A stretch of DNA of 42,005 nt, from positions 1 to 42,005 of the forward strand of contig JAHFDP010000033.1 of assembly GCA_023248955.1 (NCBI GenBank). The letters are read 5' to 3'. The notes beneath the pieces were generated by a model. It ran no database searches, was not told the origin of the DNA, and was given only the letters and a program-made list of their open reading frames with translations. Below, in pieces: positions 3,023-42,005 of the stretch. Each line of letters opens with the position of its first letter. Position 1 is the first letter of the stretch. Source of the stretch: Deltaproteobacteria bacterium. Its GTDB lineage: Bacteria; Myxococcota; Myxococcia; Myxococcales; JAHFDP01. A program made the position numbers and the translations under genes.

Positions 3023-6000
3023 ATGCGCTGTCTGCCCCCGCAAGCGGTTGTTGTCGTCCTCTCCGTCGTTGCCCTTATTGGCTGCGGTCGCGGTTCGAAT
3101 GGGACGAGCCGCCCCGTCCGGATTGGAACCGTGAGGTCCGCGGCTGCCCCGACGCTTTCGCCGGGCAACGTCACGCTGTCGCAGGGGCAGACGCAAACAT
3201 TCACCGCCGCGGGCACCGGGCCCTACACTTGGGCGCTGCAGGGCGGAGCTTCGGGAAGCGTCGCCAGCTCGGGCTCCACCACCGCCCTCTACACCGCTGG
3301 TAGCCCCGGCCAGGCCGGCGCCACCGATATCGTGACTGTCACCGATACGGGCGCTGGCAACACGACCGCCACTGCAACGGTCACGATTTCCAAGGGTGTG
3401 AACGCGTTCTCCAACTACGGCGGCGCTGGTCTCGCCGCTGGCAACGGCTTTCCCATTCAAAATACGACCCGCGTGGTGCAGAGGGTCGGTCAGACCTTTC
3501 AGGCGTTGGCGCCGGAGAGCGGGCAGACGCAGGGGATGGTGACGCTGGTGACCGTTGACCTGATTCGCACGGGCGGCGGCGCCGGACAAAATATCAAAGC
3601 CGAGATCCACAACCTCACTGGTTCGGGCGGTATCGATGATCAGGGTGCATCCAATGCGTTTTCGTCGGGTGTGGTCGACGCGCAAACGGCACTGCCGACG
3701 CTGAACGTCAGAACCAAAGTTCTGATTCCAATGACGGCGGGCACGGCGCTCACCGTCGGAACGAGTTACGCGGTGACCATCAAGGCCGATGTCGCGGGAA
3801 CGTTCACGGGCAGTGTGGTAGCCACCGGGCCCAACGATCCAAACGGTGGGGTGGCCTGGTGGTACAGCAAGCGCTACCACGTGGGCGGCTGGCTGTCGCG
3901 CGGCGTTTTTACGTCTAGCCCGGCCGACTACACCAAGGACACGGCGCACAACATTTCGGGCAACGTGTTCATTGGGAAGCTCTATCCTGCGCCGACAACC
4001 AGCAGCATCAGCCCGACTTCCGCGACGATCAATGCGTCGGCGTTGACGCTTACTGTGACTGGAACCAATTTCTTCGCGGCCTCAACGGTCAATTGGGGCG
4101 GTAGCGCGCGGACGACGACGTATGTGAGTGCAACGCAGCTGACCGCCGCGATTCCAACCTCGGATCTCACTTCGGCTGGAACGACCAGCGTGACGGTGAC
4201 GACGCCCGCCCCAGGCGGCGGAACCTCTGGCGGACAGACCTTCACCGTGAGCGGATCAAACCCCGTCCCCACGCTCAGCAGCCTCAACCCGACTTCGGTG
4301 ACAACGAACGATCCGCAGCTGACACTCACGGTGAACGGGACGAATTTCGTTTCCATTTCGTCGGTGTTGTGGGGCGGTAGCGCGCGGACGACGGCCTACG
4401 TCAGCTCCACCCAATTGACAGCGACCATCCCTGCTTCCGACCTGACCACGGCGGCGACGACCAGCGTGACCGTGACCACTGCTGCTCCCGGTGGCGGCAC
4501 CACCAGCGGGCAGAATTTCACGGTGAACAACCCGTTGCCGACAATGACCAGCGTCAATCCCAGCTGGCTTCTCGAAGGTAGCGCGGCCTTTACGCTGACG
4601 GTGAACGGAACCGGTTTTGTTTCCGGATCCACTGTGAACTGGGCTGGCGCCGCACGGACGACCACCTACGTCAGTGCCACGCAGCTAACCGCCGCCGTCC
4701 TGGTTGGGGATGTTGCAACGAGCGGTGTTTTCAACGTCACCGCGACGAACGCGACGCCAGGCGGAGGCACGTCCGCGGCGCAGGTTTTCACGGTGAACGG
4801 CAACGTTGGATTCTTCTGCACCGGCACTCAATGTTGGGGCGCAAATAGCTACGGCCAGCTCGGCAACAACACCACAACAGGGAGTCTGATTCCCAGCACG
4901 ATTGTCGGTGTGACTAGCGTCCAGAGCGAAACAATGGGGATGCGGCACGTGTGCGGGGTGATCAATGGCAGCGCCCAATGCTGGGGATCCAATGCCAACG
5001 GACAGCTCGGCAACAACTCCACGACGCAGAGCCTGGTGCCCGTTCAAGTGCAGGGGCTCACGACTGGCGTTCAAGCTGTCGCGACCGGCGCGAGCCATAG
5101 CTGTGCGATCATCAATGGCGGGGTGAAGTGCTGGGGCGGAAACAGCCGCGGTCAGCTCGGCAACAACGCCACGACGCAGAGCTTGGTTCCCGTGCAGGTG
5201 CAGGGGGTGAGCAGCGGCGCGCAGGCGATCTTCGCTGGTGAAATGACCGCGTGCGCGCTCGTGAACGGCGGCGTCCAGTGCTGGGGCTACGCCGGTTTTG
5301 GCAATCTTGGGAACAACAGCACGACCGATAGCTCTGTTCCGGTGCAGGTCGTCGGGTTGGGCAGCAACGTGCAAGGTGTCGCCGGCGGGCAGCACTTTGG
5401 TTGCGCGCTGGTCAATGGCGGTGCGCAGTGTTGGGGAAGCGATCTCTACGGACAACTCGGCGACAACGGCACTTCGCAGAGCAATGTTCCGGTGGTTGTT
5501 CAGGGCTGGACGTCGGGCGTGCAAGCGATCGCAGGCGGCAACAATTCGGCCTGCGCCATCGTGAACGGTGGACTTCAATGCTGGGGCTACAACGCCGAGG
5601 GCGAATTGGGGAACGGCTCGACGGTCAATAGCGGTGCGCCCGTGCAGGTCACCGGAATGTTAAGCGGAACGCAAACGCTGTGGCTCGGAACACAGTTCGG
5701 CTGCGCGGTCTCCAAGGGCGCAATGAAGTGTTGGGGTGCCAATGTCTCCGGCCAACTCGGCAATAACTCCACGACCGCTAGCTCCAATCCGGTCACCGTG
5801 TACGGAATGAGCCAGGTTGGCGTGCTAGCCACGGGAGCAGGCGGCGCCGGGGACCACCACAGCTGCGTCATCTTCAACGGCTACGTCGACTGCTGGGGAA
5901 AGGGAATCAACGGCCAGCTCGGCAACAACACCACGGTCGACAGCCTTGTGGGGACGCGCGCCCTGGGGCAATTGGGCGGCGCCTGGTCCGACAGCGGCGG

Positions 6001-6886
6001 CAATGCACACACCTGCGCGGTGTCCGGCCAAGGCGGGGGCGTTTGCTGGGGACGAAACGCAGCCGGCCAGCTTGGCAGCAACTCCACGGTCGATACTTCC
6101 GTCCTCGCCAACGTTTATCAATTGGGAACCACCATGCAAAGCATCGTGGGAGGGGCATCACACACCTGTGGCACGGTCAGCGGCGGCGTCCTCTGTTGGG
6201 GAGACGGCACGTCCGGTGATTTGGGCAACAACGCTACCGTCCAAAGCAATATCCCCGTTCAGGTAACGGGTTTGACGGGCGTTCAATACCTTGCGGCGGG
6301 CGAGTTCCAAAACTGCGCCGTGGTGAACGGCGGCGTACAATGCTGGGGGATCAACTCCTATGGCCAGCTCGGCAACAACTCGCTGACCGCCAGTTCCGTT
6401 CCCGTGGCCGTGCTCGGCTTGTCCTCAGGCGCGCAGCTGATGGGCCCCAACGCGCCCTCCAGCGACCACTTCTGCGCGGTCGTCAACGGCGGCGCGCAGT
6501 GCTGGGGACGCAATGACTATGGCCAGCTCGGTAACAACGGCACCAGCAACAGCAAGGTTCCAGTTCAAGTCGTCGGCTTAAGCAGCGGCGTAGAACGCGT
6601 CGTGGCCGCGCGGTTTCATTCTTGCGCGATCGTCAATGGCGGCGTGCAGTGCTGGGGCCGCAATGAGGTGGGCCAGCTCGGCAACAACAGCACCACGGAC
6701 AGCTTGGTGCCGGTGGCGGTCACGGGACTAACGACCGATGTCTCGTGCATCATCCCAGGGTGGGAACACAACTGCGTGTTGCGCAACGGCGCCGGGTTCT
6801 GCTGGGGGCTAAATGCCAATGGCCAGCTTGGAAACAATTCGACCACCAACAGCTCGGTGCCTGTTTCTTTGTCGCCGTTACCGTAG
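3023..6886 (+). CDS. Giant IPT/TIG-RCC1 surface lipoprotein (14 RCC1 units)
   Basis: This 1287-residue protein has a lipoprotein signal (VVALIGC, Cys21). Domains in order: an Ig-like domain (~43-123, [19 protein letters not shown]); an all-beta anchor-like domain (~127-315, with [16 protein letters not shown] and GGVAWWYSKRYHVGGW); three IPT/TIG Ig-fold units (~317-590, each with LTVNGTNF, a W-G/A-G turn and PGGGTS); and 14 RCC1-type units (~592-1287) of about 50 residues with the core CALVNGGVQCWG...GQLGNNST. Fourteen units equal two seven-bladed propellers. Each unit carries a C-x8-C-W-G pair that could form a disulfide. RCC1 folds bind proteins, so a cell-surface recognition role is inferred. 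AGAGG precedes the ATG by 9 nt. The N-terminal half is paralogous to the gene at 38696. Confidence 0.88.
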   Translation: MRCLPPQAVVVVLSVVALIGCGRGSNGTSRPVRIGTVRSAAAPTLSPGNVTLSQGQTQTFTAAGTGPYTWALQGGASGSVASSGSTTALYTAGSPGQAGATDIVTVTDTGAGNTTATATVTISKGVNAFSNYGGAGLAAGNGFPIQNTTRVVQRVGQTFQALAPESGQTQGMVTLVTVDLIRTGGGAGQNIKAEIHNLTGSGGIDDQGASNAFSSGVVDAQTALPTLNVRTKVLIPMTAGTALTVGTSYAVTIKADVAGTFTGSVVATGPNDPNGGVAWWYSKRYHVGGWLSRGVFTSSPADYTKDTAHNISGNVFIGKLYPAPTTSSISPTSATINASALTLTVTGTNFFAASTVNWGGSARTTTYVSATQLTAAIPTSDLTSAGTTSVTVTTPAPGGGTSGGQTFTVSGSNPVPTLSSLNPTSVTTNDPQLTLTVNGTNFVSISSVLWGGSARTTAYVSSTQLTATIPASDLTTAATTSVTVTTAAPGGGTTSGQNFTVNNPLPTMTSVNPSWLLEGSAAFTLTVNGTGFVSGSTVNWAGAARTTTYVSATQLTAAVLVGDVATSGVFNVTATNATPGGGTSAAQVFTVNGNVGFFCTGTQCWGANSYGQLGNNTTTGSLIPSTIVGVTSVQSETMGMRHVCGVINGSAQCWGSNANGQLGNNSTTQSLVPVQVQGLTTGVQAVATGASHSCAIINGGVKCWGGNSRGQLGNNATTQSLVPVQVQGVSSGAQAIFAGEMTACALVNGGVQCWGYAGFGNLGNNSTTDSSVPVQVVGLGSNVQGVAGGQHFGCALVNGGAQCWGSDLYGQLGDNGTSQSNVPVVVQGWTSGVQAIAGGNNSACAIVNGGLQCWGYNAEGELGNGSTVNSGAPVQVTGMLSGTQTLWLGTQFGCAVSKGAMKCWGANVSGQLGNNSTTASSNPVTVYGMSQVGVLATGAGGAGDHHSCVIFNGYVDCWGKGINGQLGNNTTVDSLVGTRALGQLGGAWSDSGGNAHTCAVSGQGGGVCWGRNAAGQLGSNSTVDTSVLANVYQLGTTMQSIVGGASHTCGTVSGGVLCWGDGTSGDLGNNATVQSNIPVQVTGLTGVQYLAAGEFQNCAVVNGGVQCWGINSYGQLGNNSLTASSVPVAVLGLSSGAQLMGPNAPSSDHFCAVVNGGAQCWGRNDYGQLGNNGTSNSKVPVQVVGLSSGVERVVAARFHSCAIVNGGVQCWGRNEVGQLGNNSTTDSLVPVAVTGLTTDVSCIIPGWEHNCVLRNGAGFCWGLNANGQLGNNSTTNSSVPVSLSPLP
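4798..6883 (+). repeat. 14-unit RCC1 coding repeat array (unit ~150 nt)
   Basis: Tandem in-frame units share TGCTGGGG(C/A) followed by GGCCAGCTCGGCAACAAC-like sequence. Fourteen Cys-Trp-Gly codon blocks can be counted. The units are diverged, so this is a protein repeat rather than a simple DNA satellite. The longer unit around 5821-5870 carries a small insertion. Confidence 0.85.
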
Positions 6887-6931: not shown

Positions 6932-9900
6932 ATGACGAAGCTTACCCGCTCTCTCGCAGTCCTCGTCGTGCTCGCCTCATCGGCCTGCCGAACATCCTCC
7001 TCGTCGGGGACGCGCATCGCCAATCGCGTTCCTGTGATTGGCTCCATCAGCCCCACGAGCGCCACCGCCGGAGACGCCGCATTCGTTCTGACCGTTCACG
7101 GCGCCGAGTTTGTCAACGGCTCGACTGTTTTGTGGAACGGCGGGGTTCGCGTAACCACCTTCGTTAGCGCGACGCAACTCACAACCGCCATTCCCGCCGC
7201 GGACATCGCCAACGTCGGCACGGTGAGCGTGACGGTCTTCAACACGCCGCCCGCCGGCGGGACATCCAATCCGTCGGTATTCACTACCAACGCGCCGATG
7301 CCGATGGCGGACGCGATCAGCCCCAGTGCCGCGCTCGCGGGCGACCCAGCTTTCCTGTTGACTGTCACGGGTAGCCGTTTCATGAAAACGTCGGTCGTTC
7401 AATGGGACGGCGTTGCACGGCCAACCTCCTTCGTTACCAGCTCGCAGCTGACCGCGTCGATCGCAGCGACGGACATCGCCAATGCCGGCTCGGCGGTGGT
7501 TACCGTCATGAGCCCCGCGCCTGGCGGTGGGACGACGGCTGCGAAGGCGTTCGCAATCACGAACCCCGCGCCGACACTCAGTAGCCTCACACCGAATGCG
7601 GCCACGGTCGGCGACAATGGAGTCCTGGTCAGCGTCAACGGAACGGGCTTTGTCCAGGGCTCCGTCGTTCACTGGGGTGGCGCAGCACGATCCACCTCCT
7701 TCGTCGATGCAACCAAGCTCATGGCGACGTTCCTGGCCACGGATCTGCTCATGGTGGGCGACACCAACGTCACCGTCGTCAATGCCACGCCCGGCGGCGG
7801 AACGTCGGATCCGAAACCGTTCACGGTAAATTACGCCAACCCGTCGATTTCGGCGCTCGTTCCAAATGCCGCCGCCGCGGGCTCGGGCGCGTTCACGCTG
7901 ACGATTAACGGCAGTAACTTTGTTCCGGCATCCAAGGTGAATTGGGGCAGCAAAGCAGTTGCTACGAATTACGTTAACGGCGGACAATTGACCGCTGCTG
8001 TTCCCGCAGCAAGTGTTGCCACTGTCGGTGTCATTAACGTCACGGTGGTGACCCCTTCGCCCGGAGGAGGAAGCTCCAATTCGCTGGCGTTCTCGGTCGA
8101 AAATCCGCTGCCAATCGCGAGTTCCCTCAGTCCGGCCTCGGTTGCGGTAGGCAGCGGCGCGTTCACCTTGACCGTGAATGGCAGCGGATTTGTTGCGGGC
8201 TCTGTTATTCAATGGAACGGTGGTAATCGACAGACGAATTATATCAACGCTGGTCAATTAACCGCGTCGATTTTCGCGAGCGATGTTACCGCGGTTGGAA
8301 CATCCAACGTCAATGTCGCCAATCCAGTTCCAGGCGGCGGTGCGTCTGGACTGCAAGTCTTTACCGTAACAGTCGCGAGCAATCCCGTGCCAGTGCTTAC
8401 GAGCCTCAGCCCCAACACGCTCCCCGCGGGAAGCGCCGGATTCACGCTCACCGTGAACGGCAGCAACTTTATCAGCACTTCCGCCGTTCAATGGAATGGC
8501 AACGGAAAATCGACAACGTATGTTAGCGGCAGTCAATTAACCGCGCTGATTGCCGCCAATGACCTCGCCGCCCCCGGAGCAGTCAGCGTTACGGTTGCCA
8601 ACCCCCTTCCGGGAGGCGGCGTCTCTTCGCCGCAGGTGTTTACCGTCAGCAATACCCAAAATCCGGTGCCCAGCATCAACAGTCTCAGCCCGGGCTCGAT
8701 TGCCGCTGGAAGCAGTGCGCTTACGGTGACGGTTTACGGTACTGATTTCGTCAGCGGTTCGGTTGTTCAATGGAATGGCGCGAATCGATCAACGAATTAT
8801 GTTGATTCTGGTCAATTGACTGTTTCAATCGCTTCCAATGACGTGACAACGGCCGGCTCTATCAACGTCAACGTTTTTAATCCGACGCCTGGCGGCGGCC
8901 TCTCCGCGTCGAAGAACTTTACGGTGACCAATTCCAACAATCCAGTGCCGACTCTCGCCAGTCTAAGTCCAGGCTCGGCTACGGTGGGTGACGGCGCGCT
9001 CACGCTGACGGTAAACGGAACGAACTTCGTGGGTAACTCCGTCGTCCAGTGGAATGGAAGCAACCGGTCGACGGCTTACATCAATTCCGCGCAATTGACC
9101 GCTTTAATCACCACGAGCGATCTCGCAAGCGCTGGATCGTTTAATGTCAATGTCGTCAATTCAGCTCCGGGTGGCGGAATGTCAGCGTCGCGGGCGTTCG
9201 TGGTGAATGCGATTACCGGTGGAAATTTCAACTGCGCCATTCTCAAAGGGTCCATTCAATGCTGGGGCCACGGCAAAAACGGCCAGCTCGGCAACAACGA
9301 CACGTTCGATAGCAACATTCCGGTGAAGGTCGTCGGAATTCCTAGCGGGGCGCAAGCGGTGGCCGTCGCTTCCCAAAGCGCATGCGCCATCGTCAATGGC
9401 GGCGCGCAATGTTGGGGCGTCAATTCCAAAGGTCAGCTCGGCAACAACGCCACCACGGAGAGCCACGGTCCGGTCCAAGTCCAGGGACTCACGGGCGGCG
9501 TTGAGGCACTCGCGGCGGGGTGGGACCACACCTGCGCGCTCGTGAACGGCGGCGTTCAATGTTGGGGCGCGAACGACTATGGCCAGTTGGGAAATGGCAC
9601 CACGAATGGGAGCAGTGTCCCGGTTTCGGTTCAGGGTCTCGGGAGCGGGGTCCAGGCACTCTCGGCCGGTGCATCGCATACCTGCGCATTAAAAAATGGC
9701 GGCGTTCAATGTTGGGGACGCGGCGATTATGGAAATCTCGGAAACAGCGCGACAAGCCACAGCTCCGTTCCGGTGCAGGTTTTGGGATTAACCAAGGTGC
9801 AGGCCATCGGGAGCGGACTGCAGCACAATTGCGCGATCTCGGACGGTGCCGCGCAATGCTGGGGGCGCAATAACTCAGGCCAACTCGGCGATGGCGGAAC

Positions 9901-11383
9901 CACGCAAAGCAGCGTTCCGATTGCGGTGCAATCGCTCACGGCCGGTGTTCAGGCGATCGCCGGTGGGCGAGATACCAGCTGCGCCCTCGTGAATGGTGGC
10001 CTTCAATGCTGGGGATTCGGCGGCGACGGAGAGCTGGGCAACGGCGCCAGCAGCACCAGCGCGACGCCGGTAGCGGTGCAAGGGATGGGAAGCGGCGTGC
10101 AATCAATAACGCTCGGTTATCTTTACGGCTGCGCGCAGGTGAACGGTGCGCTGAAATGCTGGGGCGCCAATAACAGTGGCCAGCTCGGCAACGGGTCGAT
10201 TACGACGAGCAATGTGCCCACGCAGGTTCAGGGGTTTAATACCAAAGTTGTTATATCGGTTGCTGCCGGCGGCGGCGCCTCGACCTGTTTCGAAGGGGGC
10301 GCGCCGGAAAAGTGCACGGTTTCTTGTGCGGTCGTCAACGGCGGCGTCCAATGCTGGGGTGGTAACAACAATTACCAGCTCGGGAACAATCCGAGCTTTT
10401 CGGGCACGCCGAGTGCGGTTCCGGTCCAGGTGTTTGGGCTCACGAGTGGTGCCCAAGCGATCGCCAGCGGGTGGCGCTTTGCTTGCGCCTTGGTCGACGG
10501 TGGAGGGCGATGCTGGGGAGCGAACGATCGGCCTGCTGGGGAGCTCGCCATCTTTGACGCGGGCCAATTGGGAAATAACTCCAGCTCGAAGAGCGGTGTT
10601 CCCGTGCACGTTTATGGTCTCGATACCGGGGTTCAATCCATTACCGCTGGGGCTTTGAATGCCTGCGCCGTGGTGAATGGCGGCGCCCAATGCTGGGGCT
10701 ACAATGGCAGCGGACGGCTTGGCAACAATCAAACGATCAATAGCAAGGTCCCGGTTCCGGTTACGGGACTTCAGAGCGGCGTTCAGGCGATCTCTAGCGG
10801 CGGCGCCTTCTCCTGCGCGCTCGTAAAAGGCGCGGTGCAATGTTGGGGTGACAATACGAACGGCGAGCTTGGCGATGGTTCCACGACTAACAGCAGTATC
10901 CCCGTTCCGGTCAGCGGCCTTACCGCTGATGTGCAGGCGGTTGCCGTTGGTGGATCGCATGCTTGTGCCATCTTGAATGGAGGAATGCAGTGCTGGGGGA
11001 GCAATCTCAACGGCCAACTTGGAAACAACACCACGGTCCAGAGCGCCGTACCCGTGCTGGTGAACGGACTTTCGAGCGGTGTTCAAGCAATTGCTTGCAA
11101 TAATAATTCGACCTGCGCGTTGGTGAATGGCAGCGTGCAGTGCTGGGGCGCCAACGCGTCGGGGCAGGTTGGCAACGGCTCCACGACAGACAGCTACGCC
11201 CCATTGCAAGTTAGTGGGCTAGCCGGAGGCGCGGCGACGATTAGCGGCGCGAGCTCCGGCGCGCATTTCTGCAGCATGGTGGGTGGTGCTGCGCTGTGTT
11301 GGGGCGCCAATGGAGCAGGCCAGCTTGGCAACGGCTCGTTTACGGACAGCAGCGTTCCGGTCACCGTTTCTCCATTTCTGTAG
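6932..11383 (+). CDS. Giant IPT/TIG-RCC1 surface lipoprotein (8 IPT, 14 RCC1 units)
   Basis: The protein has ~1483 residues. ATG 6932 is preferred over in-frame ATG 6917 because it puts a short basic n-region (MTKLTRS) before the hydrophobic core, with GGCGGA 6 nt upstream; both give the same lipobox (LASSACR). Eight IPT/TIG units follow (coding ~7027-9204), each ~90 residues with TAGDAAF.LTV.G..F, a short strand containing WNG or WGG, and P.PGGG. Then come 14 RCC1-type units (coding ~9205-11380), again two seven-bladed propellers' worth, with the C-x8-CWG pair. Unit 9 has an insertion (CWGANDRPAGELAIFDAGQL). The first four IPT units match, one by one, the first four of the gene at 31854. It lies 45 nt after the previous giant with no visible terminator, so co-expression is likely. 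A surface adhesion or recognition role is inferred. Confidence 0.87.
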   Translation: MTKLTRSLAVLVVLASSACRTSSSSGTRIANRVPVIGSISPTSATAGDAAFVLTVHGAEFVNGSTVLWNGGVRVTTFVSATQLTTAIPAADIANVGTVSVTVFNTPPAGGTSNPSVFTTNAPMPMADAISPSAALAGDPAFLLTVTGSRFMKTSVVQWDGVARPTSFVTSSQLTASIAATDIANAGSAVVTVMSPAPGGGTTAAKAFAITNPAPTLSSLTPNAATVGDNGVLVSVNGTGFVQGSVVHWGGAARSTSFVDATKLMATFLATDLLMVGDTNVTVVNATPGGGTSDPKPFTVNYANPSISALVPNAAAAGSGAFTLTINGSNFVPASKVNWGSKAVATNYVNGGQLTAAVPAASVATVGVINVTVVTPSPGGGSSNSLAFSVENPLPIASSLSPASVAVGSGAFTLTVNGSGFVAGSVIQWNGGNRQTNYINAGQLTASIFASDVTAVGTSNVNVANPVPGGGASGLQVFTVTVASNPVPVLTSLSPNTLPAGSAGFTLTVNGSNFISTSAVQWNGNGKSTTYVSGSQLTALIAANDLAAPGAVSVTVANPLPGGGVSSPQVFTVSNTQNPVPSINSLSPGSIAAGSSALTVTVYGTDFVSGSVVQWNGANRSTNYVDSGQLTVSIASNDVTTAGSINVNVFNPTPGGGLSASKNFTVTNSNNPVPTLASLSPGSATVGDGALTLTVNGTNFVGNSVVQWNGSNRSTAYINSAQLTALITTSDLASAGSFNVNVVNSAPGGGMSASRAFVVNAITGGNFNCAILKGSIQCWGHGKNGQLGNNDTFDSNIPVKVVGIPSGAQAVAVASQSACAIVNGGAQCWGVNSKGQLGNNATTESHGPVQVQGLTGGVEALAAGWDHTCALVNGGVQCWGANDYGQLGNGTTNGSSVPVSVQGLGSGVQALSAGASHTCALKNGGVQCWGRGDYGNLGNSATSHSSVPVQVLGLTKVQAIGSGLQHNCAISDGAAQCWGRNNSGQLGDGGTTQSSVPIAVQSLTAGVQAIAGGRDTSCALVNGGLQCWGFGGDGELGNGASSTSATPVAVQGMGSGVQSITLGYLYGCAQVNGALKCWGANNSGQLGNGSITTSNVPTQVQGFNTKVVISVAAGGGASTCFEGGAPEKCTVSCAVVNGGVQCWGGNNNYQLGNNPSFSGTPSAVPVQVFGLTSGAQAIASGWRFACALVDGGGRCWGANDRPAGELAIFDAGQLGNNSSSKSGVPVHVYGLDTGVQSITAGALNACAVVNGGAQCWGYNGSGRLGNNQTINSKVPVPVTGLQSGVQAISSGGAFSCALVKGAVQCWGDNTNGELGDGSTTNSSIPVPVSGLTADVQAVAVGGSHACAILNGGMQCWGSNLNGQLGNNTTVQSAVPVLVNGLSSGVQAIACNNNSTCALVNGSVQCWGANASGQVGNGSTTDSYAPLQVSGLAGGAATISGASSGAHFCSMVGGAALCWGANGAGQLGNGSFTDSSVPVTVSPFL
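9205..11380 (+). repeat. 14-unit RCC1 coding repeat array
   Basis: This has the same unit type as the array at 4798-6883, in the next gene. Fourteen Cys-Trp-Gly blocks are visible. Units are diverged from each other and from the neighbouring gene, so the two arrays are old paralogues rather than a fresh copy. Confidence 0.84.
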
Positions 11384-19161: not shown

Positions 19162-19227
19162 CTACTTTAAAACGATTAATCGACGCGATACCAACATCGA
19201 TACAAGCGTTGCGTACGATGTTCTCAT
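19162..19227 (-). pseudogene. Truncated start of a glycosidase-like gene (21 codons)
   Basis: Directly after the stop of the TolB-like gene, GGAGG and an ATG (19225-19227) open a frame reading MRTSYATLVSMLVSRRLIVL, which ends after 21 codons at a TAG (19162-19164). It matches the first ~20 residues of the intact glycosidase (29323; MRTPYATPVWMLMSRRLIVF) and then diverges at the edge of the direct repeat. It is therefore the broken 5' end of a second copy of that gene. Confidence 0.8.
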
Positions 19228-29323: not shown

Positions 29324-29324
29324 C

Positions 29325-29450
29325 TCATTTGCCTCCCGACGCAGCGATGCGCCACAACGCGCTGGGCTCTGGTCCGCGTCGCGCGTGGACTCGAATGCGA
29401 TCCATTTTCCATCGACGGACGGACTCTGTGCCTAGTCCTTGGGATCGGCC
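29325..29450 (-). pseudogene. Decayed 3' fragment of the TolB-like gene
   Basis: On the minus strand this stretch corresponds to the last ~42 codons of the intact TolB-like gene (DGKWIAFESTR ... SALWRIAASGGK). It holds an in-frame TAG (29432-29434) and has lost one C near the end, so reading needs a frameshift. It begins abruptly 37 nt after the stop of the BIG2 gene. Its GGAGG still serves as ribosome binding site for the glycosidase. Confidence 0.82.
29332..29336 (-). promoter_or_regulatory. Ribosome binding site of the glycosidase gene, inside the TolB remnant
   Basis: GGAGG on the minus strand lies 8 nt before ATG 29323 and decides that start. The same GGAGG precedes the truncated copy at 19227, so it was inherited from an ancestral TolB-glycosidase gene pair. 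Confidence 0.7.
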
Positions 29451-30537: not shown

Positions 30538-30592
30538 GGTTTCTCTCCGTGAAAGGATCCTGACGGAATAACCGAGTATTAAACGACCGTAC

Positions 30593-31853: not shown

Positions 31854-34800
31854 ATGACGAGCGTTGCCAAAGTCCTCATCACGGGAATCGCCGCGATCAC
31901 CGCGTCAGCTTGTCGTTCGTCCGTCGCGCCGCGTGAATCAACCGGCGTGGCGAGCATCGCTGCACTGACGCCTTCTGGCGCGACTGCCGGCGAGGGTGCG
32001 TTTGTTCTCACCATTCTTGGCGAGGCGTTCGTCGAAGGTTCGACCATCCTCTGGAACGGGACGACCCGTGGCGTGACTTTCGTCAGCAAGTCGCAATTGA
32101 CGACGCCCATTTCCGCCGCGGACATCGCCTCCAACGGAACGGCCAATGTCTCCGTGGTCAATACGACGCCGCAGGGGAAACGGGCGTCCAATTCCGTTGT
32201 TTTCACCATTAACGCACCGGTGCCGGCCGCGGACGCGATTAGTCCCGACGCGGTCGTCGCTGGCGGTGGCGCGTTCACGCTTACCTTCACGGGTGACCAC
32301 TTCCTCCAAGCGTCGCTGGTCCAGTGGAACGGCGACGCACGCTCAACCACCTTCGTTACGCGCTCGAAGCTGACCGCTTCCATCTCGGCGGCGGACATCG
32401 CGGTCGCGGGCGTCGTCACGGTCACTGCGACGAGCCCGACACCCGGCGGTGGAACAACCAGCGCGCGAACGTTGACGATCGGCAATCCCGCGCCGACGTT
32501 GAACGCGCTCGATCCGGGCGTGGCCACGATTGGTGATAACGGCGTCCAGGTGACGCTGACAGGAACCGGTTTCGTCGCCGGTTCTGTTGTTGAGTTGGGC
32601 CCAATCGCTCGATCCACCCAATTCGTCGATGCGACGAAGCTCGTCGCAACCTTTCTGGCGACGGATCTCCTCTTCGCGGGCGAGACGAATGTCACCGTTG
32701 TCAACGGCGCGCCGGGAGGGGGAACTTCGAATTCGAAGCCGTTTACGGTGAACGCACCGGCGCCGATCATCGCGACGCTCGTCCCCTCGTCCGTCCTGGT
32801 GGGATCTGGTGCGTTCGTGCTGTCGGTGAATGGCAATCACTTCGTTCCGACGTCCAAGGTGAATTGGGGCAATGCGGCGCTGGCGACCACCTATGTTGGC
32901 AGCGGACAGCTCACCGCGCTCGTTCCGGCGTCGGACAGCGCGGTTGCAGGCCTAGTTAACGTCACGGTGTTCACCCCATCGCCAGGGGGCGGATCCACGG
33001 AGCCACAGCTGTTCACGGTAACCAATCCGCAGCCGACGCTCACGCTCACGAGCCCCACCGCGTCCTTTGTGGGCGACGCCGCGCTGCTTTTGACGGTGAC
33101 CGGTACGGGCTTTGTGGCGACCTCAGCGGTTTCGTGGAACCTCTCGCCTCGGACGACCAGGTTCGTGAACGGCGGCACGCTGACGGCGGCCCTCTTGGCG
33201 TCGGATCTAACGACGGCGGGTACATTCAATGTCGCCGTTACCAATCCCGCGCCGGGCGGTGGGACGTCTGGTGCACAAACGTACACTGTGGGTAACCGCG
33301 TGCCGACCGCGACGAGCATCAGCCCTACGGCGGCCACCGTTGGCGATGGAGCATTCACACTGACGGTTAGCGGCACGAACTTCGTGAATGGTTCGACGGT
33401 GGGCTTTGCGGGATCAAGTCGCCCGACCAGCTTTGTTAATAGCGCCGAGGTTACCGCGACGATTACCGCGTCCGATCTCAGCGCGGCCGGTACCTTCAAC
33501 ATTACCGTCGCCACCGGAACTCCGGGTGGCGGCACATCCGGCGCGCAGACGCTCACGGTGAACAACCCCGCACCGAGCGTGGTTGCCCTCTCTCCGAATG
33601 CGGCGCTCGCCGGTTCCGGTTTGACGCTCACCGTGAGCGGCGCGGGCTTCGTGTCCACGTCCGTCGTGCAGTGGGCTTTTGCCGATCGCCCGACGACCTA
33701 CGTCAACGCGAGCCAGCTAACCGCGGCGATTTTTGCCGGCGATTTGGCGAGCAGCGGTAGTTTCAATCTGACGGTCACGAGCCCCAAGCCCGGCGGCGGA
33801 ACATCGTCGGCCGCGACGTTTACCGTGAACAACCCGGTGCCAACGACGACCAGCTTGAGCCCCTCGGAGATCAACAGCGGCGTCGCTTCTTTTATCCTGA
33901 CCGTGAACGGAACGAATTTTGTCTCCGGTTCGACCGTGAGCTGGGCCGGCGTGCCGCGAACGACCACTTTCGTGAACGCCACGGAGATCAGGGCGGCTAT
34001 CGGTGCGCAGGAGGTGGCCAGCGTCGGAATGTTCAGTGTTGCAGTAACGAATCCAGCGCCGGGCGGCGGTACGTCGAACCTCCAGACGTTCACGGCGAAC
34101 AACCCGGCGGTGACCATCAGCGGGTTCTCCCCGAGCTCCGCCCTTGCAGGAGCTTCCGCGTTTCCACTTACGATCAACGGCGCAGGTTTCGTCGCCGCAT
34201 CTTCCGTTCAATGGAACGGCGCTGCACGTCCGATGACGTTTATTGGCCCCACACAGCTCATTGCCGCGATCGCGGCGAGCGACGTGGCGGGCACCGGCAC
34301 ATTCAATGTAACGGTGACGAGCCCTCCTCCTGGGGGCGGCACTTCCGCGCCGGCGATCTTTTCCGTTACAAACCCGGTGCCGACGGCGTTGAGCATCAGC
34401 CCAGCGTCGGCCAGTGCCGGCGCGGCGGCTTTCACGATCACTTACAATGGAACGAATTTTGTTGCCGGTTCGACAGTGAGCTGGGCGGGCACCAGCCGCA
34501 CGACCAGTTACGTTAGCGCGACGCAGTTGACGGCAACGATCGGCGTTGCCGACCTGGCCAACGCGGGAACTTTTGGCCTGACCGTGACCAACGACGCGCC
34601 CGGCGGCGGGACTTCGGGTGCGCAGAAATTTACCGTGAACAACCGCGTTCCCACGACGGCGAGCATGAGTCCAAACTCGATCAGCGCGGGCGCCGCGGCG
34701 TTCACCCTGACCGTGAATGGAACGAATTTCGTCAATGGGTCGACGGTGGTTTTCTCGGGCACAAGCCAGCCAACGACCTTCGTGAACAGTACGCAGCTGA

Positions 34801-37800
34801 CGGCGCTGATTCCTGCGTCGGATCTGATCATGGCTGGGTTGTTTAACGTGACCGTGGCGACCGGAACTCCCGGCGGCGGAACGTCGGATGCGCAGCTGTT
34901 TACAGTGAACAACCTCTTACCGACGATTTCGAGCATCAGCCCCGCCGCGGCCAACGCCGGCGATTTGCTGCTAACGCTGACGGTGAACGGCACGAACTTC
35001 GTCGCATCCTCGACGGTGCAGTGGGCAGGCGCGAGCCGCACGACAACCTACGTGAGCGGGTCGAAATTGACTGCAGTGATCTCGACGTCAGACCTCTCGA
35101 TCGCCGGTACATTCAATGTCACGGTGGACAATCCGTCGCCCGGCGGCGGAACGTCTGGTGCACAAACGTACACCGTGAACAACCTCGTCCCGACGCTCAC
35201 GAACCTCACCCCCGCGGTGGTTACCGATGGCAATGGGGCGCTTACATTGACGGTGAACGGCACGAGCTTCGTCGCCGGCTCGACGGTGAACTGGGCGGGC
35301 GCCAGCCGCACGACAACCTACGTGAACGCGTCGAGTTTGACGGCGGCGATCTCGACGTCGGATCTCTCGGTGGCGGGAACCTTCAGCGTCACCGTCACCA
35401 ATCCTGCTCCGGGTGGCGGACCATCGGGAGCGCAAACGCTGACGGTAAACAACCCCGTACCGACGACCAGCAACATCATTCCGATCGCAGCGACCGCCGG
35501 CGCGAGCGCCTTCACGTTGACCGTCAACGGAACAAACTTCGTCGGAAGCTCGACGGTGAGGTGGGCTGGGGCCAGTCGTACGACGACGTACGTAAGCGCC
35601 ACGCAGCTTACCGCGTCCATCGCGGCCGCGGATGTTGCCGGCGCAGGATCGTTCAGCGTCACGGTTTTTAGCAGTGCACCGGGTGGTGGCACGACTGGTG
35701 CGCAGGCATTCTTGGTGAATCCGGCCGGCGGCTTTTTGTGGCTCGATGGCGCGGACGCAACGACGATCACGAAAAACGGCAGCAACCAGGTTTCCAATTG
35801 GGCGGACAAGAGCGGGAAGGGCTACGACGCCTTTCAGGCTTCTACCGCGAAGAGACCCAACTACGGATCGACCACCCAGAATGGCGTTCCGGTGCTTTCC
35901 TTCACCGGTTCGAGCGCGCAGGTTCTGCGTTTTCCGAGCAGCACACCAGTAACGAGCTATAGCGGTTTTTGTGTCTATGATCTGCCCACCACGATGAACT
36001 ATGCGGCGGGGCGCTACTATCCGCTCGCTTTCGGAGGCGTCACCAACACGACTGGACTCTACTCGCTAGTCGAGATCGGTGATGTCTCGTCGCGTGACGC
36101 CAACGGCCTCAACATCGCCGGTGGTTTTGGCAACGTCGCGCTCGCAGCCTATTCGGGTATCTCTTCCTCCGGCGTCTGGCAGGTGCTGAGTTGGGTCTCG
36201 GGCAGCACGCACAACACCAGTGTCTTTTCGACGGGCAATGCGGCGACGATCACCAACCCGGGAAGCGACGTGGCATGGAACTTTACACTCGGCTCGGGCA
36301 GTGACGGCGATTTCGGCGGAATCGGCGGCCTCTCCTGGGATGGTCATTATCAGGACACCAACGTGGCCGAAATCCGTGTCTACAATCGCCAGCTCAACAC
36401 ATCGGAGCGCCAGCTTATCGAAGGCGTCTTGGCTTGGAAGTGGGGGCTGAAGAGCGCGCTTCCATCGGGACACCCCTGGAAGAATACCGCGCCTTACAAC
36501 GTGGCCCCGACGATGACGAACATGCTCCCGACTTTCGCCTTGCAGAACGCCTCGGCGATCACCTTGACGGTGAATGGCACCAACTTCGCTTCCAACTCGA
36601 TCGTGAATTGGGGCGGGGCGGCACGAACGACTACCTACGTGAACCCGGTCAAACTGACCGCAGCTATTTCCACCTCCGATTTCAACACCGCGGCAACGAC
36701 CAGCGTTACAGTAACGACCCCGGCGCCGGGTGGGACCTCGGCCGGTCTTAACTTCTCCGTGAGCGCGACCAACCCGGTGCCGGCGGTCACGAGCCTCAAC
36801 CCGACCTTCGTCACGGCCGGTGCGAGCGCGTTTACCTTGACGGTCAACGGCACGAACTTTATCGCTGGCTCGATGGTGAATTGGGCTGGTTCGGCCCGAA
36901 CGACCACCTTCGTTAACGAAACCCAAATCACCGCGACCATCAACACGGCGGATATTGCCACGGCGGGATCGTTCAACGTCACGGTTACCAACGGAACCCC
37001 AGGTGGCGGGACCAGCGGGTCAACGACGTTCTCGGTCAGGGTGGTCGGACTCGTCCTCTGGCTCGATGCCGCGGATGCCACAACGATCACCAAAAACGGC
37101 GGCAACGCGGTTTCCAATTGGGCGGACAAGAGCGGGAACGGCTACAACGCCACGCAAGCGATCACGTCGCAAATGCCGAATTATGGTTCCATTACTAAAA
37201 ATGGCAGCCCTGTTCTTTCTTTCACGGCCGCCAACTCGCAAATTCTCTTCTACCCGAACACGCCCGCGCTCTCGAGCATGAGCGTCTTCGCTGTTTTCAA
37301 TCTGCCGTCGGCCATGGACTACACGAACAACGGGTACTTCCCGATCAACTTCGGCGGCAACAGCAATACGACTGGCAAGTACACCGGAGTTGCCTTCGGG
37401 CACTATGCTTCGGGGAATGCCAACGGTATCTCGATTTATGGTGGCTTCGGCAATGATGCGCAGGCCGCGTTGACGGGGATTGCCAATTCGGGCGTCTGGC
37501 AGGTGCTCGATTGGGTCTCGGGAAGCACCCACACCACGAACGTCTGGTCGAATGGAACCGCCGCCACGATGACCTACCCGGGCGGCGACGTTGCTTGGAA
37601 CCTCAAGCTGGGATCCGGTAACACGAACGACTTTGGTGGAATTGGCGGCGAGGTTTGGGGAACAGGTCCGTATCAGACCCCCTACGTGGACTCCTACGTC
37701 GCCGAGATCCGCGTCTACAATCGTCAGCTCACGACGTTCGAGCGGCAGCTCACCGAGGGACAGCTGGCCTGGAAGTGGGGACTTCAGGCGTCCTTGCCCT

Positions 37801-37832
37801 CGGGGCATCCCTACAAGAATTCCGCGCCGTAG
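31854..37832 (+). CDS. Giant IPT/TIG-LamG surface lipoprotein (16 IPT units, 2 LamG-like domains)
   Basis: The protein has ~1992 residues. ATG 31854 is chosen because it gives a clean lipoprotein signal (SVAKVLITGIAAITASAC); the frame is open upstream to 31677 but that part is not signal-like. Fourteen IPT/TIG units of ~90 residues come first (to ~35720), each with LTVNGTNFV, a W-A-G strand and PGGGTS. A concanavalin A/LamG-like domain follows (~35721-36498; FLWLDGADATTITKNG, NWADKSGKGYD, and the end motif LAWKWGLKSALPSGHPW). Two more IPT units and a second LamG-like domain (~37042-37832) complete it. LamG-like domains often bind glycans or proteins, so this is probably a long stalk with two binding heads. 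Units 1-4 match those of the gene at 6932. Units 5-9 and 10-14 are a duplicated block. No Shine-Dalgarno is obvious. Confidence 0.86.
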   Translation: MTSVAKVLITGIAAITASACRSSVAPRESTGVASIAALTPSGATAGEGAFVLTILGEAFVEGSTILWNGTTRGVTFVSKSQLTTPISAADIASNGTANVSVVNTTPQGKRASNSVVFTINAPVPAADAISPDAVVAGGGAFTLTFTGDHFLQASLVQWNGDARSTTFVTRSKLTASISAADIAVAGVVTVTATSPTPGGGTTSARTLTIGNPAPTLNALDPGVATIGDNGVQVTLTGTGFVAGSVVELGPIARSTQFVDATKLVATFLATDLLFAGETNVTVVNGAPGGGTSNSKPFTVNAPAPIIATLVPSSVLVGSGAFVLSVNGNHFVPTSKVNWGNAALATTYVGSGQLTALVPASDSAVAGLVNVTVFTPSPGGGSTEPQLFTVTNPQPTLTLTSPTASFVGDAALLLTVTGTGFVATSAVSWNLSPRTTRFVNGGTLTAALLASDLTTAGTFNVAVTNPAPGGGTSGAQTYTVGNRVPTATSISPTAATVGDGAFTLTVSGTNFVNGSTVGFAGSSRPTSFVNSAEVTATITASDLSAAGTFNITVATGTPGGGTSGAQTLTVNNPAPSVVALSPNAALAGSGLTLTVSGAGFVSTSVVQWAFADRPTTYVNASQLTAAIFAGDLASSGSFNLTVTSPKPGGGTSSAATFTVNNPVPTTTSLSPSEINSGVASFILTVNGTNFVSGSTVSWAGVPRTTTFVNATEIRAAIGAQEVASVGMFSVAVTNPAPGGGTSNLQTFTANNPAVTISGFSPSSALAGASAFPLTINGAGFVAASSVQWNGAARPMTFIGPTQLIAAIAASDVAGTGTFNVTVTSPPPGGGTSAPAIFSVTNPVPTALSISPASASAGAAAFTITYNGTNFVAGSTVSWAGTSRTTSYVSATQLTATIGVADLANAGTFGLTVTNDAPGGGTSGAQKFTVNNRVPTTASMSPNSISAGAAAFTLTVNGTNFVNGSTVVFSGTSQPTTFVNSTQLTALIPASDLIMAGLFNVTVATGTPGGGTSDAQLFTVNNLLPTISSISPAAANAGDLLLTLTVNGTNFVASSTVQWAGASRTTTYVSGSKLTAVISTSDLSIAGTFNVTVDNPSPGGGTSGAQTYTVNNLVPTLTNLTPAVVTDGNGALTLTVNGTSFVAGSTVNWAGASRTTTYVNASSLTAAISTSDLSVAGTFSVTVTNPAPGGGPSGAQTLTVNNPVPTTSNIIPIAATAGASAFTLTVNGTNFVGSSTVRWAGASRTTTYVSATQLTASIAAADVAGAGSFSVTVFSSAPGGGTTGAQAFLVNPAGGFLWLDGADATTITKNGSNQVSNWADKSGKGYDAFQASTAKRPNYGSTTQNGVPVLSFTGSSAQVLRFPSSTPVTSYSGFCVYDLPTTMNYAAGRYYPLAFGGVTNTTGLYSLVEIGDVSSRDANGLNIAGGFGNVALAAYSGISSSGVWQVLSWVSGSTHNTSVFSTGNAATITNPGSDVAWNFTLGSGSDGDFGGIGGLSWDGHYQDTNVAEIRVYNRQLNTSERQLIEGVLAWKWGLKSALPSGHPWKNTAPYNVAPTMTNMLPTFALQNASAITLTVNGTNFASNSIVNWGGAARTTTYVNPVKLTAAISTSDFNTAATTSVTVTTPAPGGTSAGLNFSVSATNPVPAVTSLNPTFVTAGASAFTLTVNGTNFIAGSMVNWAGSARTTTFVNETQITATINTADIATAGSFNVTVTNGTPGGGTSGSTTFSVRVVGLVLWLDAADATTITKNGGNAVSNWADKSGNGYNATQAITSQMPNYGSITKNGSPVLSFTAANSQILFYPNTPALSSMSVFAVFNLPSAMDYTNNGYFPINFGGNSNTTGKYTGVAFGHYASGNANGISIYGGFGNDAQAALTGIANSGVWQVLDWVSGSTHTTNVWSNGTAATMTYPGGDVAWNLKLGSGNTNDFGGIGGEVWGTGPYQTPYVDSYVAEIRVYNRQLTTFERQLTEGQLAWKWGLQASLPSGHPYKNSAP
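33027..35720 (+). repeat. Five-unit IPT block duplicated in tandem (2 x 1347 nt)
   Basis: IPT units 5-9 (33027-34373) and 10-14 (34374-35720) are exactly equal in length, 449 codons each. Corresponding units share private features: 6 and 11 both have RVPT, NFVNGSTV and VATGTPGGGTS; 8 and 13 share VTNPAPGGG; 9 and 14 share AGASAF and DVAG. This indicates duplication of a five-unit block followed by divergence. Confidence 0.75.
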
Positions 37833-37931: not shown

Positions 37932-38576
37932 ATGAAAGCCTCTGGCCCTTTTGCGCTTCTTTTCGCCGCAAGCACCTTGCTCGCGAGCGAGACGCGACCC
38001 AAGATGTGCCCGCCGGGCACCTTCGTCGGATCTTCCTGGGGGAAGCGCACCTGCGCGCTCTGTCCGCCCGATACCTTCTCGGCCACCCCTGACTCCAACC
38101 AGTGCATACCGTGTCCGCCGGGGACCCGCGCGCCCAACGCAGGCTCCACCGCTTGTGCGATTCCACCGCCGTCGCCAGCCTGCCCACCGGGTACCTCCAA
38201 GAGCAGCGATGCCTCCGGAAAGCGCACCTGCGCGCTCTGTCCGCCCGATGCCTTCTCGGTCACCCCGGACTCCAACCAGTGCACACCGTGTCCGCCGGGG
38301 ACCCGCGCGCCCAATGCGGGCTCCACCTCCTGCGCGACGACGCCTTCGAGCCCGCCAGCTGCGCCACCACAGCCATCCAACTGCACGCCGGGCACCGCCC
38401 CGCGCGCTGATGGAACGTGCGCGCCATGCGCGCCGGGAAAGTTCACAGCCATCGTGGGCGCTCTGCTGTGTCTGCCCTGCCCGGCCGGTACGTTCGCGCC
38501 CTATGCCGGTTCAATCGCGTGCAGTCCCTGCCCGCCGGGACGCCAATCGGCCGCCGGCGCCGTGGCTTGTGAATAG
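37932..38576 (+). CDS. Small secreted Cys-rich protein (GCC2/GCC3, ephrin-receptor-like repeats)
   Basis: This 214-residue protein has a Sec signal peptide (ALLFAASTLLASE) and a good AAAGGAG 8 nt before the ATG. The mature chain is made of Cys-rich repeats of the CPPGT-(F/R)-A...C-x-x-CPPG type seen in GCC2/GCC3 and ephrin-receptor-like modules (CPPGTFVGSSWGKRTCALC; CIPCPPGTRAPNAGSTAC; CAPCAPGKFTAIVGALLC; CPAGTFAPYAGSIAC). Pro-rich linkers separate them. Cysteines appear in disulfide-like pairs, so an extracellular, rigid binding module is likely. Two copies of a 59-residue unit are nearly identical. It sits between the two LamG giants and may be transcribed with them. No function is recognised. 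Confidence 0.83.
   Translation: MKASGPFALLFAASTLLASETRPKMCPPGTFVGSSWGKRTCALCPPDTFSATPDSNQCIPCPPGTRAPNAGSTACAIPPPSPACPPGTSKSSDASGKRTCALCPPDAFSVTPDSNQCTPCPPGTRAPNAGSTSCATTPSSPPAAPPQPSNCTPGTAPRADGTCAPCAPGKFTAIVGALLCLPCPAGTFAPYAGSIACSPCPPGRQSAAGAVACE
38043..38340 (+). repeat. Internal 177-nt tandem duplication in the Cys-rich gene
   Basis: AAGCGCACCTGCGCGCTCTG occurs at 38043 and again at 38220, and ~115 nt downstream of each start match with few changes. The offset is 177 nt (59 codons), keeping the frame. The second copy carries small changes such as GATACC to GATGCC. Confidence 0.85.
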
Positions 38577-38686
38577 ACAAAATGGTTGGGCTCGGCTTGA
38601 CGGGCAAGTGAAGTGACGGAATTGGTGGCCTGAGGAGAACAATAGAATGGGGCGCTTTGTGCGATAATGAACCAATAGGCTATTTC

Positions 38687-38691
38687 GGAGG
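38687..38691 (+). promoter_or_regulatory. Ribosome binding site deciding a TTG start
   Basis: GGAGG lies 4 nt before TTG 38696. No ATG or GTG in this frame sits near the signal-peptide coding region, so the TTG is the best start for the large gene that follows. The spacing is slightly short. Confidence 0.6.
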
Positions 38692-38695
38692 TACA

Positions 38696-41600
38696 TTGAA
38701 CGCTCGCCATTCGTGGTTGTGCGCTCTTCTCGCGGTAGCCACGACCGTCGCGGCTTGCGATCAGCGGGTGGCCGGGGCCGATCGCGCGCCTCGTCTCGGA
38801 AACGCCAGGTCGGCCGTCAACCCGACGCTTTCCCCTGCCAACGTGACGCTGTCGCAGGGACAAACGCAGCAGTTCACCGCAACCGGAACCGGGCCTTATA
38901 CCTGGGCATTGCAAGTGAGCCCCTCGGGCAGCATCAGCAGCGCTGGTCTCTACACGGCGGGTAGCCCCGGTTCTAGCGGTGCCACGGACACCGTTACGGT
39001 CACCGACACGGGCGCTGGCAACAGCACCGGCACGGCCACGGTCACAATTTCCAAGGGCGTCAATGCGTTTAGCAACGGTGGCGGCAGCAACGGCGTCGTC
39101 GCCGGCAACGGATTTCCGATTTTGAGCAACACTCGGGCCACAAAGAAGGCTGCGCAAACGTTCCAGGCGGCCGCACCGGTTGGTGGCGCCACGCAGGCCA
39201 TGGTGACGCTGGTGGCCGTGGACATGATTCGGGTCTCGGGCGGAAGCGGACAAAACATCAAGGCGGAGATTCATAGCCTCACGGGTTCCGGCGGGATCGA
39301 CGATCAGGGGACTTCGAATGCTTTCGCAACGGGCACGGTGGATGCGCAGACGGCGTTGCCGACGCTGAATCTGAAAACGCGCGTGTTGATTCCCATGACC
39401 CCGGGTACGGCGTTGACGGTGGGGACAAACTACGCGGTCATCATCAAACCCGACGTGGCTGGGACCTTGAATGCTTTCGTGAGCGCAACCCCAGCGAACG
39501 ATCCCAACGGCGGCGTCGCCTGGTGGTATGCGAAGCGATACCTCCCAGGTGGCTGGGTGGGGCGCGGCATCCTTTCTACCGGCCCGGCAGATTACACCAA
39601 GGATACCACGCACAACCTCTCGGGCAACGTTTTTATGGGTGAGGTTTACCCGGCGCCGACAACCTCCAGTATTAGTCCGAGTTCGGCCACGGCGGGTGGG
39701 GCGGGCTTTACGCTGACGGTCACCGGGACCAACTTTTTCGGGGCCTCGACGGTGAAGTGGGGCGGCAGTGCGCGCACCACGACCTACGTCAGCGCGACGC
39801 AGTTGACCGCCGCAATCAACGGCGCGGACATCGCGAGCAGTGGCACGACGAGCGTAACCGTGACCACACCCGCACCTGGCGGCGGTACGTCAGGCGGGCA
39901 GACTTTCACGGTAAGCAACAGCGCGTCCAAGTATGGTTTCCCTTTTCCGACCGGATCGGTTCGGGCGACGATCTGCTCTGGCGCGATGCTGGTCCAGCTT
40001 CAGGACGCGGGTGGCAACGCCATCACGAACTCAACGGGCGGCAGCCTGATCGTCGCACTTTCTCGAACGCTCCAAGGCGGCGGCAGTCCCACCGGAACGA
40101 CGACCTACTATTCGGATTCAGCCTGCGCGTCGCAGATTTCGGCGCCGTTGACGGGTTTCACGATCGCCGCGGGGACCAGCACCAACACGTTCTACTTTAA
40201 GCATTCAGCGCAGGAGAATCTCACCATCACCGCGGCGGATGGAAGCGGCCAAGGCTACACCAGCGCTACCGCGAACGTGGTCGTCATGCTCAGCAGCATT
40301 CTCGCGGGGAAGACCAACATGAAGTTTTGGCTCAAAGCTGATTCGATTGGTCTGGGAAACAACGCAGCGGTCCCAACTTGGAGCGACAGCTCCGGCAACG
40401 GATACACCTGGACGAGCTCGGGCTCTCCGACCTACACGACGGCAGATAGCGCGCTGAACAATCAGCCAACCGTCAAGTTTGTCGGTTCCAGTGCCCAGTT
40501 TTTTACGAGTGCCTACACCAATAACTACATCACCGGGACCAATCCGTGGACCCTGACGGTGGTGGAGATTCAGGATGCCAGTGGGTGTTGCTCGAACTTC
40601 CTCTCCTGGTATCAGACCGGTGGACCAGGTGACGAAAACATCCAGGTCGCCAAGAGCGGCGCGCTGATGAATCTTTGGGCGGGCTCCGAGCTGTTCGGTG
40701 TGTCTGACGGAACCGCGTTGGGTACGGCGTACGTCACGGTTTGGCGTCGCATATCTTCGAATAGCTGGGACGTTCGGGTCAATGGTGTCCAGAAGGGCAC
40801 GTCGTCGAGCACCGTTAGCCTCGGAACGCCGACGAACAACCTGCACAACGCCCAATTCACCATCGGAGCTGACGCGGACACGAGCGTGCAACGTTTCACC
40901 GGCCGTATTTCGGAGATGGTGCTCCATTCCACCAACCTTTCCAACAGCGATCTATCGAATGTCGAATGCGAGCTTGGAGACAAGTATGGTGTTTCTGTCT
41001 CTGGTGGCTGTACGAGTGGGTCCACAGCATCTATTTTGGCTTATTCCGCTTCGGTATCGCTGGTTGGAAAGACACTCTGCTCCGGTGTCATGACGGTGCA
41101 GCTACAAAACATCTATGGGGACTCCATCGCCAACTCGACGGGAAGCGCGGTCACCGTTGCCTTGTCGACCAAACTGCAAACCGGTGCGAGCACCACGGGG
41201 ACCACCACCTACTATTCAGATTCTACCTGCACGACGCAGATTAGCAGCCCCTCGACTGGATTTACGATTGCCAATGGATCGAAGTCCGCCAACTTTTATT
41301 TCAAGCATTCCGCGGTTGAAAACATCGTCGTTGCCGCCGTCGATGGCAGCGGTCACGGGTATGCACCCACCAACGCCAACGTAACGGTAGCTAACAACAA
41401 GTATGCGTTTACAGTAGCGGCAACAACGCTTAGCACGACCGCGTGCACTGGTGCGATGACCGTGCAACTTCAGGATCCAAACTCCAGCGCGTTGACCAAT
41501 TCCACGGGTGGCGCGCTCGTGGTCGCACTGTCACGGACACTCCAGGGTGGCGGCTCGCCCGCGGGCACTACCACCTACTATTCGGACGTGGGCTGCGTCA

Positions 41601-42005
41601 CCCAGATTTCCAGCCCCTCGACTGGGTTCAGTATCGCCAACGGGTCCAATTCTAACACTTTCTATATGAAACATTCGGCGGTGGAGAACATCACGGTGAC
41701 CGCGGCCGATGGCAGCGGAAATGGCTACACCAGCGCCACGACGAACGTGACCGTTTCGAATAGCTATCTGACGTTGAAGACCAACATGAAGTTTTGGCTC
41801 AAGGCCGATTCGATTGGTCTGGGAAACAATGCCGCGGTCTCGACTTGGAGCGACAGCTCCGGGAACGGGTACACCTGGACGAGCTCTGGCTCGCCGACCT
41901 ACAAGACGTCCGATAGCGCGCTGAACAATCAGCCAACCGTCAAGTTTGTCGGTTCCAGTGCCCAGTTTTTTACGAGTGCCTACACCAATAACTACATCAC
42001 CGGGA
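38696..42005 (+). CDS. Giant Ig/IPT-LamG surface lipoprotein, 3' end outside window
   Basis: The frame is open for 1103 codons from TTG 38696 to the window edge. The signal [20 protein letters not shown] gives a lipobox (VAAC). An Ig-like domain ([19 protein letters not shown]), an anchor-like beta domain ([32 protein letters not shown]) and one IPT unit match the start of the gene at 3023. Next are a filamin-like bacterial surface repeat (~39931-40290; [34 protein letters not shown]), a LamG/concanavalin-like domain (~40308-41010; [18 protein letters not shown], ending [11 protein letters not shown]), two more filamin-like repeats (~41029-41757), and the start of a second LamG-like domain nearly identical to the first. 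It was probably assembled by module duplication. An adhesion or glycan-binding role is inferred. Confidence 0.84.
40310..40538 (+). repeat. LamG module segment, copy 1 (partner at 41777-42005)
   Basis: These 229 nt align without gaps to 41777-42005 at an offset of 1467 nt (489 codons). Thirteen differences fall in the first 135 nt, while the last 94 nt (from 40445) are identical. This is the first part of the LamG-like domain. Confidence 0.9.
41777..42005 (+). repeat. LamG module segment, copy 2, running off the window
   Basis: This is the second copy of the 229-nt segment at 40310-40538. Identity is complete from 41912 to the last base of the window, so the match probably continues beyond it. 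Confidence 0.9.

Follow-up and report, generated by a model that had tools for sequence, protein, structure and literature searches.

Front and tail modules have probably been exchanged between paralogous genes of a genome-wide family of large predicted lipoproteins in a Myxococcota bacterium

Large lipoprotein genes that lie close together in one bacterial genome may resemble one another at one end and differ at the other. The question raised by the contig examined here is whether such genes have exchanged their front and tail parts, and whether they still do so. The window, by which we mean the whole stretch of 42,005 nt that was analysed, is contig C78 of a genome of 3.83 Mb in 116 contigs (completeness 95.6%, contamination 0.7%). 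The original prediction was that two N-terminal types and two C-terminal types occur in all four combinations among four genes of the window, reflecting active exchange of surface heads on conserved stalks. The genes were compared with the rest of the genome, with 40 relatives and with 195 genomes of the phylum, a set that lists no other genome of the host's own family. Genes outside the window are named by their contig. The Ig-like and beta domains together are called the front module, and LamC, LamD and bigD serve as provisional labels for distal domains of genes C and D.

All four genes, A to D, are real long open reading frames on the forward strand (+), each with a lipoprotein-type leader at its start, and the starts proposed earlier at 6932, 31854 and 38696 agree with these leaders. 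The leaders end, as judged by eye, in ALIGC (A), SSAC (B), TASAC (C) and TVAAC (D). A signal peptide with a lipobox cysteine, as expected of an outer-membrane lipoprotein, was recognized by eye in all four, and a simple pattern matched A, C and D. Gene A (3023–6886) encodes the leader, the front module (Ig 3143–3394, beta domain 3395–3988), three IPT units (3992–4804) and 13–14 RCC1 units (4868–6874). Gene B (6932–11383) consists of the leader, eight IPT units (7031–9214) and 14 RCC1 units (9137–11371). In gene C (31854–37832, start codon chosen by eye) the leader is followed by 14 IPT units (31950–35726), a first LamC domain (35727–36494), two later IPT units (36507–37043) and a second LamC domain (37047–37829). 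Gene D (38696–42005) has a leader, the front module (Ig 38816–39055, beta domain 39056–39652), one IPT unit (39656–39922) and alternating bigD and LamD domains, the latter at 40292–41017 and from 41756 to the contig end; its C-terminus lies beyond that end and its tail is known in part only. The repeat model NF058597 (choice-of-anchor Z repeat, curated cut-off 30) scored 270.9, 748.3, 1358.7 and 106.1 bits on A, B, C and D, with 3, 8, 16 and 1 matching units, respectively. The RCC1 model PF00415 (gathering score 21.7) gave 247.6 bits for A and 325.3 bits for B, with C and D not listed.

Several other features of the window were recorded. A 2210-aa open reading frame on the reverse strand (20301–26933) has the look of an RHS/YD-repeat protein and includes two stretches of NHL-like sequence. 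The 215-aa Cys-rich protein encoded at 37932–38576 has Ephrin_rec-like repeats, and a stretch of 118 bp is repeated there at 92% identity. The product of 30596–31543 (reverse strand) has no Pfam match and is 38% identical over 110–140 aa to genes downstream of the Cys-tail genes on C1 and C112, and these two share 74% identity over 106 aa. A direct repeat of 189 bp (19169–19357 and 29265–29450, 86% identical) has its sole two genomic copies here, and an Rfam scan of the window gave no match.

Comparison of the four genes confirmed most of the predicted resemblances. Genes A and D do share an N-terminal type, made up of the front module plus the first IPT unit (IPT1): A 3125–4252 and D 38798–39916 are homologous at 71% nucleotide identity over 1138 bp, the front modules are 73% identical in amino acids, and the match stops at 4252/39916, the end of IPT1. 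Genes B and C share their four leading IPT units (7031–8107 and 31950–33029) unit by unit on a strict diagonal, at 58, 61, 71 and 60% amino acid identity, and the diagonal is absent after unit 4. Since B's sixth IPT unit finds matches of 48–61% in unrelated phyla, this colinearity carries more weight than the level of identity. The RCC1 tails of about 14 units foreseen for A and B were also found (profile counts of 13 and 14); they are 51% identical to each other, and each is no closer to the other than to other RCC1 tails. These results account for three corners of the two-by-two arrangement. The fourth did not hold, since the tails of C and D belong to different subfamilies rather than to one ‘LamG’ type: they are 24% identical over 244 aa, and their profile match in local-mode hhalign spans 51 columns only. 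For these two tails the arrangement inside the window is at best a resemblance in a putative fold. The strict fourth combination lies outside the window, at C73:12571–16236, where a front module precedes the tail cassette of gene C. This cassette (LamC-IPT-IPT-LamC, or with the preceding unit IPT-LamC-IPT-IPT-LamC at 35460–37829, + strand) is shared with C73 at 59% amino acid identity over 803 aa.

The folds of these parts were examined by family and structure searches. No LamG/concanavalin family matched the ends of C and D at E < 0.01 in Pfam or E < 0.05 in NCBIfam, and LamC had no match in a sequence search of the PDB. For the front module, PDB matches were weak and confined to short stretches, the best being to designed armadillo-type proteins (E 0.006). 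Models of the front module and LamC built from two-row alignments reached a pLDDT of ∼31, leaving these folds unconfirmed. The tail of gene A, on the other hand, matches the solved UVR8, RCC1 and BLIP-II structures by sequence. RCC1 units occur mostly in blocks of 7 or ∼14, and the repeat number together with the BLIP-II and UVR8 matches would suit one or two propellers of seven blades each.

The window samples only part of a family of large predicted secreted lipoproteins encoded throughout the genome. Because many contigs stop inside these genes, the counts that follow are minima. A genome-wide search for the front module found 12 near-complete genes, which between them carry six tail types, and three fragments. 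The tails are RCC1 (A, C106 and C37), NHL (C75 and C115), Gly-rich (C31 and C45), LamC (C73:12571–16236), LamD (D) and Cys-rich (C1 and C112), and that of C34 is cut off. About 17 further genes carry an IPT array with no front module: 12 with an RCC1 tail, plus two cut by contig ends, one with a LamC tail (gene C) and those with a Gly-rich tail (C32, two on C13, and C111). RCC1, LamC and Gly-rich tails are thus each found on both front types. The genes of the window were not one another's exchange partners; the front module of D is closest to that of C115.

Outside this genome the parts are distributed unevenly. Units of the NF058597 type occur in 124 of the 195 phylum genomes and RCC1 units in 155 of the 195; IPT-like units are present in many phyla, as arrays without these tails. 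With our own profiles, an IPT array joined to RCC1, LamC or Gly-rich tails was found at 0 of 76 named loci outside the host genome. Front-module profiles found matches in 13 other phylum genomes, to the Ig or the IPT parts. The beta core had no match outside the host among the 195 phylum genomes, and the front module had none in named genomes and plasmids.

Had whole-gene duplication alone produced this family, front module and tail would share one history, but their histories differ. The beta domain of C75, an NHL gene, is closest to that of C106, an RCC1 gene (78% DNA identity), and the beta domain of the other NHL gene, C115, is closest to that of D (77%). In IPT1, however, C75 and C115 are mutually closest (73% DNA identity), and their NHL tails share 67% amino acid identity, the next best match in the genome being 28%. 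A nearest-neighbour test with 5000 label shuffles was applied to the nine genes whose tail type occurs more than once. The nearest neighbour had the same tail in 3/9 cases for the Ig domain, 4/9 for the beta domain and 1/9 for its second half, compared with 9/9 for IPT1, a score reached by none of the 5000 shuffles. The front-module tree likewise disregards tail type: AU tests on this part rejected the NHL pair (p = 3.6e-7) and the RCC1 trio (p = 8.7e-9) as clades, while the Gly-rich pair was not rejected (p = 0.33). In the IPT1 tree the NHL pair forms one clade (100/98), and AU tests rejected the groupings C75 + C106 (p = 0.017) and C115 + D (p = 0.003). Trees of the RCC1 tails were too divergent to resolve.

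Maximum chi-square analysis of nine triples placed four breakpoints at columns 840, 841, 857 and 872 of an alignment of 1113 columns (p = 0.0005, 0.0005, 0.001 and 0.0085), none of them more than 25 nt from column 849, where the front module meets the IPT unit; these p-values are somewhat optimistic, as the triples were picked after the identity tables had been seen. A fifth significant breakpoint, from the triple of C115 with D and C75, lay within IPT1 at column 996, two triples were borderline (p 0.05–0.06) and two were clearly not significant. In gene A the beta-domain/IPT1 border, the probable exchange point from the genome-wide set, lies at approximately 3970–4010 (+). In gene D the candidate breakpoint, with C115 and A as parents, lies at approximately 39634–39674 (+; permutation p = 0.001). 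These tests show that the front module has a history separate from that of the remaining protein and that the switch occurs at or near this border, so that IPT1 and the tail travel together. The recombination of front and back parts that had been predicted is supported by discordant trees, by the switch of nearest neighbours and by breakpoints at one border. The idea of a conserved stalk has to be amended, since IPT1 moves with the tail and the border falls just ahead of it, after the front module.

The strength of this signal is tempered by the age of the sequences. Fourfold-degenerate sites are identical at 0.42–0.50 on average, near saturation, which indicates that most exchanges are old. 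In IPT1, identity at these sites within tail types is 0.48 versus 0.44, a difference that is not significant, and the nearest-neighbour test on synonymous sites, which are saturated, was significant neither for IPT1 nor for the beta domain, the Ig part reaching 4/9 (p = 0.033). The IPT1 signal thus rests largely on non-synonymous sites, and shared constraint could account for part of the same-tail agreement. This saturation is one of the observations that would suit plain duplication and divergence with repeat expansion, in which the mixing would reflect noisy trees or convergence of repeats. Such a history also fits the tandem expansion by which IPT and RCC1 repeats evolve, and the Cys-tail pair of C1 and C112, which co-diverged as a block and was duplicated together with its downstream gene. 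It is at odds with the clades rejected by AU tests of the front module, with the change to same-tail neighbours at IPT1, with the clustered breakpoints and with a LamC cassette that is found behind both front types, and we consider this already disfavoured explanation unlikely. Past exchange between paralogues, separating front from back parts, is by comparison well supported by the sequence evidence.

Exchange that is still active and programmed, in the manner of a shufflon or of antigenic variation, would diversify heads for the self/non-self or prey recognition that the original prediction had raised as possible. The repertoire is indeed combinatorial, and one front module looks like a recent mosaic: those of C109 and C73b are 99.1% identical over 226 bp, with leaders at 55% and upstream DNA at ∼28%, while C109 and C94 are 94.5% identical over 419 bp of upstream DNA and 95% identical in the front module. 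Both C109 and C73b lie at contig ends, and an assembly error is possible. In C94 a front-module copy (30178–31258, L041) is in three pieces, the middle one (residues 182–312) being inverted relative to its flanks. This split and partly inverted copy is likely to be a pseudogene or a misassembly near a contig end. Most pairs, however, are only ∼70% identical in nucleotides, with the saturated fourfold sites described above. The window contains no large inverted repeats of the shufflon type (the scan covered the window and no other locus); its only inverted self-match at E < 1e-3 is an imperfect palindrome of 90 bp (1658–1745, 78%). No recombinase was found among the window open reading frames scanned, a set that left out 20301–26933 and small frames. 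The single reverse transcriptase domain of the genome (PF00078, E 2.4e-42; G000:C11:21064–21681) lies on contig C11, away from these loci. Active or programmed exchange is for these reasons quite improbable.

Two further kinds of repeated DNA were seen in the genome. An element of ∼144–160 bp that resembles a MITE, with terminal inverted repeats near CCTGAAAACCTCA, is present at three places on C94, C112 and C64 (L041 5337–5482, L039 1271–1430 and L044 3563–3706) at 98.6–99.3% identity. The RCC1 gene DNA of C36 and C94 (L047 and L041) is 93% identical over 1007 bp, indicating a recent duplication.

Our preferred explanation, to which we assign a probability of roughly three in four, is that of a genome-wide lipoprotein family in which front and tail have been exchanged by recombination at the beta/IPT1 border to give a surface repertoire of ligand-binding proteins. 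That the exchange took place between paralogous genes is the part we hold most firmly, and we consider it very likely. Each protein has a leader, followed by a membrane-proximal part that is either the front module with one to three IPT units or an IPT array directly after the leader. The distal tail consists of RCC1 blocks of ∼7 or 14 units, of NHL or Gly-rich repeats, of LamC or LamD, or of a short end rich in Cys. Paralogues have probably recombined ectopically at the border, by ordinary homologous recombination or by gene conversion, yielding new head–tail pairs over long periods. The IPT units would then serve as spacers, the heads that bind being the tails of beta-propeller or lectin-like type, and shuffling together with duplication would broaden the range of ligands. 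The leaders, the spacer-like IPT arrays and the propeller-like form of the tails point to binding proteins displayed at the surface, but whether these predicted proteins act as adhesins or other ligand binders is in our view an even call. A bolder version of the preferred explanation makes the lineage-specific front module the base of a surface library that is still recombining, with heads swapped at a fixed border. It would give the bacterium a standing repertoire of binding specificities, and we regard it as doubtful.

Large repeat proteins annotated without a function are plentiful in Myxococcota, and this family offers domain shuffling within one bacterial genome in a form that can be tested statistically. 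The exchange point is placed at a domain border, with the clear prediction that IPT1 and the tail are the moving unit.

Among known systems, the SitA toxins are lipoproteins of the same phylum in which the N-terminal domain defines the family and the C-terminus is modular and polymorphic (PMC8546572), but the likeness is limited to this modular plan. The possibility that the present genes encode toxins of this kind or their counterparts, with a conserved delivery front and a variable C-terminal toxin, deserves hardly any credence, because the tails with family matches are RCC1, NHL and IPT repeat domains, no toxin or nuclease family was found in the proteins scanned, nor any immunity gene, no conserved small gene lies downstream of the front-module genes, and the proteins are much larger repeat proteins. 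The IPT units of all four window genes match NF058597 (CoaZ_rpt_PGGG) far above its cut-off, and this model covers the repeat unit only and not the joined RCC1, LamC or Gly-rich tails. RCC1 units are expanded in many genomes of the phylum, the RCC1 tails have counterparts in Myxococcota RCC1-repeat proteins and in bacterial propellers of this type, for instance BLIP-II, and an RCC1 repeat protein is listed among the outer-membrane-vesicle proteins of M. xanthus (PMC4158809). Compared with other RCC1 proteins, the RCC1 tails described here sit on a shared front module or on an IPT array. TraA is described as a polymorphic surface recognition protein of myxobacteria and a kin-recognition receptor (PMC6372800). 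Its variation concerns a receptor at one locus, traA, whereas in the present genome it is spread over many paralogues.
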